DNA of 64,000 nt from an uncultured Clostridia bacterium (GTDB lineage: Bacteria; Bacillota; Clostridia; UBA1381). A program made the position numbers and the translations under genes. Shown here in pieces: positions 2,917-33,261 of this stretch. The notes under the pieces were generated by a model. It worked only from the letters and a program-made list of their open reading frames with translations, was not told the DNA's origin and searched no databases. The stretch lies in contig CANQQZ010000001.1 in NCBI GenBank assembly GCA_947626135.1, positions 1 through 64,000 of the forward strand, written 5' to 3'. Each line of letters starts with the position of its first letter. Within the stretch, counting starts at the first letter, position 1.

Positions 2917-5640
2917 ATGTCGGATAAAAAGAATAACGGCGGCTACGACGGCGAATTTGACTGGGACGCGTATGATATGATGACGTCGGGACAGTCGCCG
3001 TACAGCGGTGCGAACGGGTCCTCATCATCGGGGCGTTTTGCCGGTTCGGACGGCGAGGAGGAGCCGTTGTCCCGCCGAAACAGACAGCGCGGAACGGAGC
3101 GGCAGGGAAACAGATCCGGCTCGTCGGGCGGAACGCGGCGCACGAGCAGCCGCCCGGGAACAGAGGTGAGCGCGCAGCGGAAAAAGCCCGCGAAGAAGCG
3201 CCGCAAAAAAAAGCAGCTTACCGAAAAACAGAGAAAATTCAGACGCAGGCTCCGCACGTTTATCCTTGTCGCGGCGGCTGTGCTTATAGTAGTCGTTTCA
3301 AGCGTGTGCGTGGGTATGTACGCGGCTGTATCGCGCGAGATAAAGGATATGAATATACAAAATCTCGCTCTCGATTCAACGTCGTTCATTTATTACACGG
3401 ATGTCTACGGAACGGAGCAGGAGCTGGAGCAGATACAATCCGCGGAAAACAGGATATGGCTTAATTCCGATCAAATCCCGCAGGTTATGAAGGATGCTAT
3501 GGTTTCCATCGAGGATGAGCGCTTTTATAAGCATCATGGCGTGGATTTAAAGCGCACGGCGGGGGCTACGGCGGGATATATTCTGTCCAAGCTCGGCATA
3601 GGCAGCGCGAGCTACGGAGGTTCAACCATAACGCAGCAGGTAATAAAGAATATCACAAATGAAACAGAGGCCACGCCTACTCGAAAAATCAAGGAAATGA
3701 TGCGCGCTGTGGCGCTGGAGCAAGAGCTGTCAAAGGACGAAATACTGACGCTTTATCTTAATATTGTATGTTTTGCCAACGGCTGCAACGGCGTAGAGGC
3801 GGCGTCGAACGTTTATTTCGCCAAGCACGCATCCGAGCTGACGCTGCCGGAGGCGGCGTCGATAGCGGGCATCACTCAGTTCCCCTCGCAGTTCGACCCG
3901 TATACGCATCCCGATAAAAATATCGAAAAGCGCAATACGGTGCTCGCCAAGATGAACGAGCTGGGCTATATTGACGACGCGGAATACGCTGAGGCGTCGG
4001 CAAGCGATTTGATAGTCAACAACAGCTATATAGAAAACGGTATGCATATTTCCTCGTACTTCGTGGACCAGGTGATAACCGACGTTATTTCGGATTTGCA
4101 GAGACGCCGCGGCTACAGCGCGGAATTTGCCGAGCAGCAGGTATATAACGGCGGATTAAAGATTTATTCCACGGTTGATGTCAACATTCAGCAAACGGTG
4201 GAAAGCGTGTACTATAATGCCGAAGGGTTCCCGTATACGGGTATGGATGCCCAGTCGGCGATGGTGATAATAGACCCGTACACGGGTCAGGTAAAGGGTC
4301 TTATCGGCGGGCTCGGTCCCAAAACGGACGTGCGCGGGTTTAACCGTGCAACGCAGGCGAGGCGGCAGCCGGGTTCGTCAATAAAGCCGCTTTCGGTTTA
4401 CGGTCCGGCGGTGGATTTGGGAAAAATCACCGAGGTGACGAATGTGACCGATGAGGAGATAACGATAGGCAGCGACAACTGGAAGCCCAAAAACTCGTAT
4501 AACGATTTTTACGGGGACATGACGGTCCGCGAGGCGATCGGACGCTCGGCGAACATTCCGGCTGTCAAGGTGCTTGATATGGTCGGATTGTCCACCTCAT
4601 ACGGATATTTGCAGAATAAATTTCATATCGAAGACCTTTCCGAGGATGACAAAAACTATTCGTCGTTATCGCTGGGCGGTCTTACGAACGGCGTTTCTCC
4701 GGAGGAAATGGCCGCGGCATACTGCGTGTTTGTAAACGGCGGCAAATATATAAAGCCGTATACGTACACGCGCGTGGTCGACTCGACAGGGCAGGTGATT
4801 CTCGAAAACACAGCCGAGTCAACCCAGTCAATAAGCGCGGCTGCGGCATATATCATGTCGGATTTGCTCAGCGCTGTCGTGAACGACAGCTACGGAACCG
4901 GTAAATCGGCAAAGCTGGACAGCGGTATGCCTACCTACGGAAAAACCGGTACCACGGACGACGATGTGGATAAGTGGTTCGTAGGATTTACACCGTATTA
5001 TGTCGGCGCGGTTTGGTACGGCTTCGATAATCCGTCGTCGCTTTCGGCGGCAGGCGTATCGGGAAATCCGTGTGTGGAGGCGTGGAATCTGATAATGGAC
5101 CGCGTTCACAGCGGATTGGCGATAAAAGAACTGGAGCGTCCGACAAACATAGTTGAGGCAACGGTATGCACACGTTCGGGTATGCTTGCGTCAAGCAGCT
5201 GTCCCGCGGCGGATTCATATTTCGTTGACGGAACCCAGCCAAAGTCCTTGTGCAACGGCACACATTCATCGGGAACGGCGTATGGCTCATCCTCCGATGA
5301 TGATGACGATGACAGCGAAAGCTCTCCGGTTCCGCAGACTGTTACGCCGCCGTCCTCCACGGTGAATTCGGCTCCCTCCGACACAAGCGGCTCGTCCGAC
5401 ACAAGCTCCGGAACAAGCTCGGGCACAGCGTCCGGCTCGGGCGAGGACACGGGCTCGGGCGGCGACACAGGCTCGGGCGGCGACACAGGCTCGGGCGGCG
5501 GCGCGGGCTCGGACGATGAAACAGACTCGGGCGGCGAAACGGGTTCGGACGAGGATACGGACTCGGGCGGCGACACGGACTCGGGCGAGGACACGGGCTC
5601 GGGCGATGCGTCCGGCGCTGACGCGGGAGCCGCGGAATAG
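2917..5640 (+). CDS. Class A penicillin-binding protein (PBP1A family), bifunctional transglycosylase/transpeptidase
   Basis: Polymerises lipid II and cross-links peptidoglycan at the outer face of the membrane. The 907 residues comprise a basic, Ser/Gly-rich cytoplasmic N-terminus (1-112), one membrane helix (about 114-137), a GT51 domain with catalytic Glu in SIEDERFYKHHG (about residue 199) and GGSTITQQ, then the transpeptidase domain with SSIK (about 487), the SAN triad and KTGTT (about 675). After about residue 790 the chain is an extracellular low-complexity tail of Ser, Gly, Asp, Glu and Thr with repeated SGGDTG-like units. GGAGGTG precedes the ATG. The gene is monocistronic between a sigma-A promoter and a terminator. 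The nearest named homologue would be ponA. Confidence 0.96.
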   Translation: MSDKKNNGGYDGEFDWDAYDMMTSGQSPYSGANGSSSSGRFAGSDGEEEPLSRRNRQRGTERQGNRSGSSGGTRRTSSRPGTEVSAQRKKPAKKRRKKKQLTEKQRKFRRRLRTFILVAAAVLIVVVSSVCVGMYAAVSREIKDMNIQNLALDSTSFIYYTDVYGTEQELEQIQSAENRIWLNSDQIPQVMKDAMVSIEDERFYKHHGVDLKRTAGATAGYILSKLGIGSASYGGSTITQQVIKNITNETEATPTRKIKEMMRAVALEQELSKDEILTLYLNIVCFANGCNGVEAASNVYFAKHASELTLPEAASIAGITQFPSQFDPYTHPDKNIEKRNTVLAKMNELGYIDDAEYAEASASDLIVNNSYIENGMHISSYFVDQVITDVISDLQRRRGYSAEFAEQQVYNGGLKIYSTVDVNIQQTVESVYYNAEGFPYTGMDAQSAMVIIDPYTGQVKGLIGGLGPKTDVRGFNRATQARRQPGSSIKPLSVYGPAVDLGKITEVTNVTDEEITIGSDNWKPKNSYNDFYGDMTVREAIGRSANIPAVKVLDMVGLSTSYGYLQNKFHIEDLSEDDKNYSSLSLGGLTNGVSPEEMAAAYCVFVNGGKYIKPYTYTRVVDSTGQVILENTAESTQSISAAAAYIMSDLLSAVVNDSYGTGKSAKLDSGMPTYGKTGTTDDDVDKWFVGFTPYYVGAVWYGFDNPSSLSAAGVSGNPCVEAWNLIMDRVHSGLAIKELERPTNIVEATVCTRSGMLASSSCPAADSYFVDGTQPKSLCNGTHSSGTAYGSSSDDDDDDSESSPVPQTVTPPSSTVNSAPSDTSGSSDTSSGTSSGTASGSGEDTGSGGDTGSGGDTGSGGGAGSDDETDSGGETGSDEDTDSGGDTDSGEDTGSGDASGADAGAAE

Positions 5641-5690
5641 CCGGCGGACGGGATTGATTTGACAGGATAAAAATTTTACTGAAGCACATA

Positions 5691-5838: not shown

Positions 5839-5867
5839 TTGCAAAATATGCATATTTATGGTATAAT
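5839..5867 (+). promoter_or_regulatory. Sigma-A-type promoter of the MATE exporter gene
   Basis: -35 TTGCAA (5839-5844), 17-base spacer, -10 TATAAT (5862-5867). The -10 hexamer is the left edge of the repeated leader element. Together with the terminator before it and the leader after it, this accounts for the gene-free stretch 5641-6004. Confidence 0.8.
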
Positions 5868-5959
5868 AACCTCACGAAACAATACGAAATCAAAGATTTC
5901 TGTGTTTCGGAGAACATTGTATCATAACGCTGCGGCGACGATGCCGCCTTGCAGTTATG
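5862..5959 (+). promoter_or_regulatory. Repeated two-hairpin 5' leader element, copy A (MATE gene)
   Basis: A 98-base block that recurs at 32574-32671 with 11 differences. The first 58 bases differ at a single position. Hairpin 1: CGAAACA (5875-5881) pairs with TGTTTCG (5903-5909), and inside it GAAATC (5886-5891) pairs with GATTTC (5895-5900) around an AAA loop. Hairpin 2: ATAA (5924-5927), CTGC and GGC (5930-5936) pair with GCC (5943-5945), GCAG (5951-5954) and TTAT (5955-5958) around a 6-nt loop. The block starts at the -10 hexamer, so almost all of it is transcribed, and it ends 45 bases before the start codon. I do not recognise a known riboswitch class. A DNA-operator role for the hairpin-1 dyad is an alternative. 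Confidence 0.65.
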
Positions 5960-6004
5960 GTATAATATATGCGTCAATAAAATTGCTGGTATGGGGAGAG
6001 AATT

Positions 6005-7375
6005 ATGGCGAAGCGCAGAGACGCGGATCTGGTCCGCGGAAATTTATGGAGCGGCATATTGATGTTTGCGCTGCCTCTGGCGGCGAGCAGCATATTGCAG
6101 CAGCTCTTTAACAGTGCGGATGTGGCGGTCGTCGGACAGTTTGCCGGAAGCCGGGCTTTGGCGGCGGTAGGCTCGAACGCGGCTGTCATAAATCTGCTGG
6201 TAAATATCTTTATGGGATTGTCCATAGGCGCGAATGTGGTAATCGCGCGGTACGTGGGCGAAGGAAACAAGAGCAAAGTCGAAAGAGCGGTCCACACTGC
6301 GGTGGCTGTATCGCTTATAAGCGGCGTGATCGTCACGGTTTTGGGAATCGTCGTATCCCGTCCCATTTTGGAGATGATATCAACGCCGGATGATATAATC
6401 GACCTGGCGTCGGTATATCTGAAAATATATTTTTTGGGTATGCCGTTCATGATGCTCTATAATTTCGGAGCGGCTATACTGCGCAGCGTAGGCGACACGC
6501 GCAGACCGTTTATATGTCTGCTCGTATCCGGGATTATAAACGTCGTATTAAACCTGTTTTTTGTTATAGTGTGCAGGCTGAGCGTCGCGGGCGTGGCGAT
6601 AGCGACGGTAACGTCAAATATAGTCAGCTCGGGGCTTGTGCTCTGGTTCCTGATGCGCGAACGCAGCGATATACGGGTGGATTTGAAAAAGCTCAGGATA
6701 GATAAGCGGATTTTAAAGGAAATAGCCCGTATAGGCTTGCCCGCGGGAGTGCAGGGCGTGGTGTTTTCGTTTTCCAATATCTGCGTGCAGTCGGCTGTGA
6801 ACAGTCTCGGCTCCGATGTTGTTGCGGGAAGCGCCGCAGCGCTTAATTTCGAGTATTTTGTATATTTTATGCTGAACGCGTTTTCGCAGGCGTGTGTTAC
6901 CTTCACAAGCCAGAACTACGGCGCGGGGGAGTACGCGCGCTGCCGTAAAATCGCGAGGCTGTGTACACTTATGGGTTTTCTCGCAAGCGGGGCTATGTGC
7001 GCGGCGTTCCTGATTTTGGGCAGGCACGCGCTCCGGCTCTATACAAACGAGGAAGCGGTTATGGCGACGGGAATAGTCAGAATGAGGTATTGCCTGCTGT
7101 TCCAGTTCACGTCCGTGCTTATGGATACGCTGTCGGGAAGCATGCGCGGTCTGGGATACTCGCTTACGCCGGCAATTATATCGCTTGCCGGCTCGTGCGG
7201 CTTGCGGCTTGTGTGGGTATATTTGATATTCCCATTGAATCCGACGTTCGATATGCTTCTGACGGTTTATCCGGCAACGTGGGCGGTGACGTCGGCGGCT
7301 ATGTTTGCGGCGTATATGTTCGTCTCGCGGCATATGCTCAAACGACGCGGGATGTACGCGGAGACGGCGGTGTAA
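6005..7375 (+). CDS. MATE-family multidrug/cation efflux transporter
   Basis: Integral membrane antiporter of the multidrug and toxic compound extrusion family, which exports cationic or aromatic compounds using Na+ or H+ gradients. The 456-residue product fits the family, with 12 hydrophobic segments in two halves. The start RGNLWSGILMFALPLAASSI and the segment LFNSADVAVVGQFAG are typical of the clostridial NorM/DinF-like branch. GGGGAGAG lies 4 bases before the ATG. The gene is monocistronic, transcribed through the repeated leader element that is shared with the azoreductase-like gene at 32.7 kb. That links this exporter to a redox detoxification enzyme. The substrate cannot be read from the sequence. 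Confidence 0.95.
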   Translation: MAKRRDADLVRGNLWSGILMFALPLAASSILQQLFNSADVAVVGQFAGSRALAAVGSNAAVINLLVNIFMGLSIGANVVIARYVGEGNKSKVERAVHTAVAVSLISGVIVTVLGIVVSRPILEMISTPDDIIDLASVYLKIYFLGMPFMMLYNFGAAILRSVGDTRRPFICLLVSGIINVVLNLFFVIVCRLSVAGVAIATVTSNIVSSGLVLWFLMRERSDIRVDLKKLRIDKRILKEIARIGLPAGVQGVVFSFSNICVQSAVNSLGSDVVAGSAAALNFEYFVYFMLNAFSQACVTFTSQNYGAGEYARCRKIARLCTLMGFLASGAMCAAFLILGRHALRLYTNEEAVMATGIVRMRYCLLFQFTSVLMDTLSGSMRGLGYSLTPAIISLAGSCGLRLVWVYLIFPLNPTFDMLLTVYPATWAVTSAAMFAAYMFVSRHMLKRRGMYAETAV

Positions 7376-32550: not shown

Positions 32551-32579
32551 TTGAAATGCGGGAGGGTTTGTGTTATAAT
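32551..32579 (+). promoter_or_regulatory. Sigma-A-type promoter of the azoreductase-like gene
   Basis: -35 TTGAAA (32551-32556), 17-base spacer, -10 TATAAT (32574-32579). The spacer is unlike that of the MATE promoter, but the -10 sits at the same place relative to the repeated leader. Confidence 0.8.
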
Positions 32580-32671
32580 AACCTCACGAAACAAGACGAA
32601 ATCAAAGATTTCTGTGTTTCGGAGAACATTGAAGCACAACGCTGCGGCGATAGTGCCGTTATGCGGTTATG
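32574..32671 (+). promoter_or_regulatory. Repeated two-hairpin 5' leader element, copy B (azoreductase-like gene)
   Basis: Matches copy A (5862-5959) at 87 of 98 positions without gaps. Hairpin 1 arms are CGAAACA (32587-32593) / TGTTTCG (32615-32621) and GAAATC (32598-32603) / GATTTC (32607-32612). In hairpin 2 the inner stem is kept while loop bases change, and one U-A pair of copy A becomes U-G. One outer pair of hairpin 2 is lost. Homology stops on both sides of the block. It ends 32 bases before the start codon at 32704. Confidence 0.65.
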
Positions 32672-32703: not shown

Positions 32704-33261
32704 ATGGAAAAAATCTTATTTGTAAATGCGTGCGCGCGCAGGGGATCGCGAACAAACCGGCTGGCGCGGCGGCTGCTGGAAAAACTTGACGGAGATATCA
32801 GGGAAATATGTCCGGAGACGAGCGGACTCAAGCCAATGTGCGGGGAATCGCTCTCCCTCCGCGATGAGCTGACGGCGGCGGGAAAAATTTCAGCGCCGGA
32901 GCTTAGCGCCGCGCGCGAATTTGCCGAAGCGGATATAATTGTGATTGCCGCGCCGTACTGGGATTTGATGTTCCCAGCGTTTTTGAAGATTTATCTTGAA
33001 AATGTAACGGTTTGCGGCGTGACGTTCCGTTATACCGACGAAGGTATAGCCGAGGGCTTGTGCCGCGCCCGCAGACTGTATTACGTTACCACCTCCGGAG
33101 GACCGATTAGGCGTAATCTCGGCTTTGAATATGTGGACGCGCTGTCAAAGGAATTTTACGGCATAGACGATACGCGGTTTATTTCCGCGGAGGGGCTTGA
33201 TATCATCGGCGCGGACACGGAAGGCATACTTGAAGCTGCGGCGCGCGGAATCAAACCGTAA
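32704..33261 (+). CDS. Flavodoxin-fold NAD(P)H:quinone / azo-reductase
   Basis: The ATG at 32704 is chosen because GGAGGGGG precedes it and homology starts at MEKILFVNACAR; an upstream reading frame runs into the leader element and is not coding. The 185-residue product has the flavodoxin_2 layout: P-loop-like NACARRGSRTNRLA for FMN phosphate, then IIVIAAPYWDLMFPAFLK (about residues 80-97), GVTFRYTDEGI and TSGGP, the FMN-binding set of AzoR-type enzymes. Such enzymes reduce quinones and azo compounds in two-electron steps and protect against electrophiles. The shared leader with the MATE exporter suggests joint control. Substrate unknown. Confidence 0.88.
   Translation: MEKILFVNACARRGSRTNRLARRLLEKLDGDIREICPETSGLKPMCGESLSLRDELTAAGKISAPELSAAREFAEADIIVIAAPYWDLMFPAFLKIYLENVTVCGVTFRYTDEGIAEGLCRARRLYYVTTSGGPIRRNLGFEYVDALSKEFYGIDDTRFISAEGLDIIGADTEGILEAAARGIKP

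Follow-up and report, generated by a model that had tools for sequence, protein, structure and literature searches.

Short mobile elements derived from IS200/IS605 (PATE-like) lack terminal inverted repeats, carry subterminal hairpins, and insert in one orientation, 3′ of a short fixed target. A second point of reference is provided by the BOX elements of Streptococcus pneumoniae (boxA-boxBn-boxC), which are small modular interspersed repeats with variable tandem number and transcribed hairpins, have neighbor genes without a common function, and are probably non-autonomous mobile elements (PMC3049150). The BOX, RUP and SPRITE repeats of the pneumococcus are over-represented between convergent genes (PMC3049150).

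Here, we analyze a repeat that occurs twice in a 64,000-nt stretch of DNA (hereafter the window) from an uncultured Clostridia bacterium, where a preliminary description had presented it as a two-hairpin block at the start of two gene leaders. We will show that the two copies belong to a large family with a fixed position relative to promoters, and we will argue that the block is quite probably a copy of a non-autonomous, gene-less mobile repeat that inserts right 3′ of the −10 box of existing σA-type promoters.

The first copy lies at 5862–5959 and matches the second at 32574–32671 (the parts of both copies, and the gene behind each, are on the + strand), exactly as previously located. The blastn alignment of the two has 89 % identity over 98 nt, in agreement with the 87 of 98 identical positions counted earlier, and a repeat search of the window places them in a single direct-repeat family (86 % over 112 nt). 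Within the first 58 bases there is indeed one difference only, T/G at 5883. Each copy was also correctly said to start at a −10 box with a 17-base spacer: the promoters are TTGCAA-17-TATAAT (5839–5867) for copy 1 and TTGAAA-17-TATAAT (32551–32579) for copy 2, with a TG before both −10 boxes.

In copy 1, the −35 box (TTGCAA, 5839–5844) is part of an unrelated flank, which is not conserved between element copies, 17 nt before the −10 of the element. The left boundary is the extended −10 TATGGTATAAT at 5857–5867, an instance of the TRTGnTATAAT that is conserved in 132 arrays (see below). It is followed by module A (5868–5922), consisting of AACCTCAC, a covarying hairpin with arms at 5875–5881/5903–5909 and 5886–5891/5895–5900, and GAGAACATTG (5910–5919), and then by module B (5923–5959), a second hairpin CATAAC...GTTATG. 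The homologous block had thus been delimited properly, but copy 1 runs one motif beyond 5959, up to a second TATAAT at 5961–5966, which forms its right boundary and is an apparent target duplication. The gene downstream, at 6005–7375, encodes a MATE family efflux transporter (TIGR00797, 1e-71). Copy 2 is preceded by the −35 box TTGAAA (32551–32556) and has its left boundary at the −10 TATAAT (32574–32579), module A at 32580–32634 with GAGAACATTG at 32622–32631, and a decayed module B at 32635–32671, after which there is a degenerate second −10 (TTGGAAT). Downstream of it, at 32704–33261, lies a gene for an FMN-dependent azoreductase-like flavoprotein, assigned from weak NCBIfam matches below the cut-off.

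Both copies fold far better than shuffled sequence, with z values of −5.66 for copy 1 and −3.67 for copy 2. No terminator-like site was found in the leader of copy 1; a terminator or attenuator was dismissed at copy 2 as well, the one site near it being on the other strand and upstream of the element. The window contains also a ten-fold 18-nt tandem repeat at 5376–5641, at the 3′ end of the open reading frame 2917–5640, which encodes a 6-residue repeat.

The general layout of the element is an invariant AACCTCAC, a covarying stem, an invariant GAGAACATTG, and a second palindrome ending in nTATAAT. From the copies of the window's genome, module A can be written as TATAAT, AACCTCACG, the stem, GAGAACATTG, two variable bases and CAT, and module B as a palindrome, for example CATAACGCTGC...GCAGTTATG, ending in nTATAAT. 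After module A comes either module B or an alternative longer module C, and then the gene or another unit. Module C (ca 70 nt, CTTTGCGCGCCACTG...GCAGTCTGCAAATATATGATA), which in several genomes follows module A in place of module B, also ends in a TATG-n-TATAAT-like sequence; it was seen at the loci L170, L015, L019 and L022, and at others, such as L002:1640-1735. In the commonest short form the element measures ca 93 nt between the flanking −10 motifs, the overall range being 76–132 nt. Arrays open with module A and do without a dedicated end module, and the head-to-tail arrays of the window's genome have a period of 98–101 nt.

To examine the pairing of the stem, we used 38 diverse copies that have the same stem type. 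Of the cells for the 12 proposed pairs, 97.4 % hold a standard pair; changes occur on both sides in 9 of the 12 pairs, and there are 99 double-change cells compared to 30.8 in shuffles, with slid controls being only 30–44 % paired. At the ends of the second palindrome, too, the sequence changes while complementarity is kept. The two-hairpin fold proposed earlier for the 5′ leaders behind the promoters is in other words conserved, and its stem arms covary strongly. This covariation with retained complementarity argues that the hairpins are under selection, as RNA or as single-stranded DNA; covariation alone fits both. The motifs flanking the stem, AACCTCAC and GAGAACATTG, stay invariant in copies from many genera. 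It is important to point out that these two motifs, with at most two mismatches each, served to gather the copies; their invariance is therefore in part a product of the sampling, which does not hold for the stem covariation. AACCTC sits between the −10 and the expected transcription start, yet it is as invariant as the transcribed motif, and because it precedes that start, we take this invariance as a hint that it is recognized as DNA, not RNA. Terminal inverted repeats are not above the shuffled level (score of 4.29 compared to 4.56, in 66 TATAAT-bounded units).

The genome to which the window belongs (2.33 Mb in 50 contigs, 84 % complete) gives 40 blastn matches at E≤1, of which ca 35 are clearly significant, in ca 20 places. 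The match between the two copies of the window is hence real, but they are members of a large repeat family and not a pair. Many of the matches form tandem arrays, and several contigs end inside arrays, which fits a repeat that disrupts assembly. In GTDB genomes, the matches listed for the pattern ATAACCTCACG-N20-45-GAGAACATTG amount to more than 115 stretches, and these are Clostridia by record title, mostly Oscillospiraceae, Ruminococcaceae and relatives. The isolates among the matches listed include Faecalispora jeddahensis, Anaeromassilibacillus senegalensis, Clostridium minihomine and Clostridium sporosphaeroides. In the window's order, 14 of 95 genomes carry the element, with 1–21 copies each, and in a phylum-wide draw 2 of 398 do so, namely the window's own genome and one with 29 copies. 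The strict pattern is absent from three of the four genus mates, and a reversed-pattern control had no matches in the same genome samples. Further copies in related genomes thus exist, many gut Clostridia being carriers, with a patchy presence and 1–29 copies per carrier genome. A limited search of the open-access literature returned no earlier description of the repeat.

Carriage by phages or plasmids was considered and discarded, on the grounds that the strict pattern has no copies in IMG/VR, that there are none in the PLSDB plasmids, and that the 17 IMG/VR matches to a looser pattern lack the stem and are due to chance. One 33-nt partial match is present in Streptococcus phage Javan191 (L307:1501-1560, and also L308), where GAAACAAAACGAAATCAAAGATTTCTGTGTTTC...GAGAACATT separates a packaging gene from the gene after it; this site resembles module A but does not start at a promoter, and it was seen only once. 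Two further repeats were encountered. One is a variant, AGAACC(A/T)TCACG - stem - CGGAGAACCTTG, in another family of the order (L034, L037, L038 and L040, in genomes G032, G025, G034 and G036), of which at least some copies are reversed and lie upstream of a separate TTGACA/TATAAT promoter; it is perhaps an older or differently targeted branch. The other is a different dispersed repeat with at least 15 copies in genome G016 (L039, L046, L049, L052, L055), having only the core GAAATCAAAGATTTCTGTG in common with the element.

We now consider the position on promoters, for which the upstream flanks of 132 non-redundant arrays were aligned at the left end of the element. Upstream of TRTGnTATAAT the flanks have nothing in common except a TTG peak at the −35 position, with a spacer of 17: a match to TTGACA in at least four of six positions is found in 41 % of the arrays at this spacer, compared to ca 5 % at other offsets. 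As for the TRTG extension, it corresponds to the −16 region of σA promoters in Gram-positive bacteria. The downstream gene is codirectional with the element in 95 of 113 cases (95:18), and the upstream gene is evenly divided (63:63), these counts being approximate as a simple ORF caller was used. On the right-hand side, 22 of the 37 last units with a clear palindrome have a TATAAT (at most one mismatch) right behind hairpin B, at the exact expected position, compared to 0–2 at other offsets. This right-hand TATAAT may have arisen by duplication of the target, or it may belong to the element itself, as its end.

Orthologous promoters without the element, which keep a single −10, were found for three of the genes. 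The best case is radA, for which the relative G004 (protein 89 % identical) has a −35, a 17-nt spacer and a −10 that align almost base for base, with the element missing right after TATAAT. The occupied radA locus is split over two contigs whose ends share 77 bases of repeat; that these contigs belong together is supported by the flank, which matches G004. In front of the azoreductase-like gene, G004 has TTGCAA-17-TACAGT, and then a leader that resumes where the element of the window ends; for the MATE gene, another relative, G007, has TGTGCTATAAT, and then a leader resembling the one past the second TATAAT of the element. In these latter two comparisons the leaders have diverged, and the second −10 of copy 2 is degenerate. 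Our interpretation of the empty promoters and the right-hand TATAAT is that the element inserted at the −10 and that both sides kept a −10. The rimM gene was also considered as an empty site and set aside, the G004 leader being too different for a safe alignment. That leader (L284) has TTGACG-17-TATAATATGGTATAATAAGG, with two −10 motifs 4 nt apart and without the element; the doubled −10 could be the footprint of a precise excision.

The stems are genome-specific, with a similarity of 0.78 within genomes compared to 0.62 between them (none of 500 label shuffles reached the observed value), and the flanks of the same copies within genomes have a similarity of 0.44, i.e. they are unrelated. From this specificity we infer amplification within genomes; the stem pattern fits copying of this kind, and not a gene-by-gene inheritance of a regulator-binding leader. 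Furthermore, the same site has five units in one and two units in another of two relatives whose downstream DNA is ca 91 % identical. Many near-identical copies in unrelated flanks of one genome and empty orthologous sites, the two marks of a small mobile repeat, are accordingly both present. The preliminary description had linked a mobile repeat to copies at random positions; the genome-specific stems, the tandem arrays, the patchiness and the empty orthologous promoters do speak for a mobile repeat, but the copies are at promoters, not at random.

The reading as a mobile repeat that inserts 3′ of the −10 has direct support in the existence of the family, its modular anatomy, the covarying hairpins, the −10 position, the codirectionality, the empty orthologous sites, the genome-specific amplification and the variation in array length. 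An element ending in (R)TGnTATAAT would, after insertion, leave a −10 on both sides and keep the old promoter. The old −35 would then drive the upstream −10, the mRNA would begin with the element, and next to the native leader there would still be an extended −10. Insertion is probably tolerated because promoter function survives in this way, the old −35 keeping a −10 and the gene keeping an extended −10 nearby. Head-to-tail arrays would arise because each end of the element is a target again. Dispersal would take place by insertion, carried out by a trans-acting enzyme that recognizes the hairpins, AACCTCAC and GAGAACATTG as DNA, and the target would be the melted non-template strand of the promoter, the open complex exposing the non-template TATAAT.

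No mobilizing enzyme was found, and four element-rich isolates have no Y1 transposase. In the 1.4 Mb of loci analyzed, neither an autonomous long version nor a full element with tnpA/tnpB and matching ends was found. Unpaired left or right conserved motifs in these loci were judged to be decayed or truncated copies and not the ends of a long element. Either some other enzyme acts on the element, or there is none and spread would be by short-homology template switching. More tentatively, the element could stand for a new class of mobile elements that integrate at the promoter open complex, an enzyme attaching a single strand with a hairpin end to the melted −10 region; we regard this as possible, though doubtful. 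If true, the element would spread from promoter to promoter while the promoters keep working, and unrelated genes would get a common folded 5′ leader. A 5′-terminal hairpin can stabilize mRNA, and for this reason the copies may have a general effect on expression or mRNA stability.

The option without a dedicated enzyme is a sub-mechanism of the mobile-repeat reading, namely passive recombination by template switching during replication or repair, using the TRTGnTATAAT at both ends as short homology. This would explain why the element sits at the −10, why a −10 is found on both sides, why there are tandem arrays and why no enzyme turned up, and array length does differ between relatives. However, the invariant internal AACCTCAC and GAGAACATTG, combined with stems that turn over across genera, are left unexplained, an 11-nt homology is short for frequent exchange, and transfer would still be needed for the spread across distant families. 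We consider this option unlikely, although worth keeping in mind.

Another scenario is that of a functional leader RNA of a dispersed regulon, in which a protein or ligand controls many mRNAs by binding to the 5′ hairpin and GAGAACATTG, or the hairpin stabilizes the transcripts, the copies having spread and been kept by selection for this role. It would agree with the strong covariation and the invariant flanking motifs, with the location nearly always in codirectional leaders at the expected transcription start, and with the terminator-free leader of copy 1; as a counterpoint to the mobile repeat, the strict conservation of AACCTCAC and GAGAACATTG could reflect a host function. The downstream genes, however, have no common function. 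In the window's genome they code for the MATE exporter, the azoreductase-like flavoprotein, RadA, RimM, a VanX-type dipeptidase, an XerC/D-like recombinase, RnfC, an adenylation-domain protein and a DNA polymerase IV relative, and in 66 downstream proteins from many genomes there are 75 Pfam families, none of them in more than three proteins. Orthologues and most genus mates do without the element, the stems are specific to the genome and not to the gene, and AACCTC is as invariant ahead of the expected transcription start as the transcribed motif is behind it. A leader RNA of this kind is thus improbable.

A third possibility is a REP/REPIN-type element moved by a RAYT (Y1 HUH) transposase of the same genome. 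Short imperfect hairpins, the intergenic location, the arrays and the absence of terminal inverted repeats follow the same logic as IS200/IS605 ends, and Y1 proteins, some of them divergent and RAYT-sized, are encoded in some element-bearing genomes. Nevertheless, there is no PF01797 match in the element-rich genome G007 or in the four element-rich isolates, and the flanks of the divergent Y1 genes (ca 165–180 aa), where a repeat is seen, have unrelated GTAGGG-type repeats, which makes this possibility a remote one. Such divergent Y1 proteins of ca 165–180 aa occur in the same order at L184, L202-L206 and other loci of this kind, and GTAGGGCAGGGGCTTGCTCCTGCC-type repeats flank some of them. 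A partial Y1-like match in the window's own genome (G000:C3) does not read as a transposase.

Finally, the riboswitch or operator for toxic aromatic or quinone-like compounds put forward in the preliminary description can hardly be correct: the two copies of the window do precede a MATE exporter and an azoreductase-like gene, and MatE is the commonest downstream family, though in 3 of 66 proteins only, but radA, rimM, rnfC and many other unrelated genes carry the element, the MATE and azoreductase orthologues of relatives lack it, and no gene family recurs more than three times in the 66 loci. That both copies of the window come before detoxification genes is coincidental, these being two of ca twenty places.

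It remains to compare the element with the known systems. Like the leader RNAs and riboswitches of Rfam, it is structured, covarying and located in 5′ leaders. However, it lacks coherence in gene function and has genome-specific stems, and the earlier statement that no known riboswitch-type motif is recognizable holds: the Rfam search of the window, including both copies, gave no family at gathering score, and at a permissive E≤10 the element region matched only rli60 and RnaG, far below gathering. For annotators, the lesson is that a leader structure, even if conserved and covarying, may turn out to be a mobile repeat and not a riboswitch. With classical MITEs (RUP, ERIC, Correia elements) it shares the short, gene-less, multi-copy nature, the target motif on both sides and the ability to affect expression, but terminal inverted repeats were not detected, and the MITE-type target duplication, i.e. 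TATAAT on both sides in the 22 of 37 clear last units, has a right copy that may be the element's own end. The REP/BIME/REPIN repeats with RAYT are similar in their short hairpin units, arrays, intergenic location and single-stranded-DNA hairpin logic, and differ with respect to the −10 target and the second palindrome ending in TATAAT, and in that several element-rich genomes have no Y1/RAYT. The IS200/IS605-derived elements resemble it in the subterminal hairpins (which covary in the present element), the lack of terminal inverted repeats, the insertion in one orientation 3′ of a short fixed motif (here the TRTGnTATAAT at the left boundary) and the target motif at both ends, features that would work in the manner of single-strand transposition; here, in contrast, no associated TnpA/TnpB was found, and the target resembles TRTGnTATAAT with a −35 behind it. 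The features of BOX given at the outset (PMC3049150), i.e. modular build, variable tandem number, transcribed hairpins, neighbors without common function and probable non-autonomous mobility, recur in the element. The modularity (modules A, B or C) is an analogy of layout, the arrays of the element beginning with module A and having no separate end module, and whereas BOX is over-represented between convergent genes, the element lies upstream, codirectional and on the −10 box. Small interspersed repeats usually persist where they are least harmful. The present element behaves in the opposite way. In many genera of gut Clostridia it is placed on the −10 to the exact base, with a −10 on both sides, and it rewrites the mRNA 5′ ends of housekeeping and accessory genes alike.
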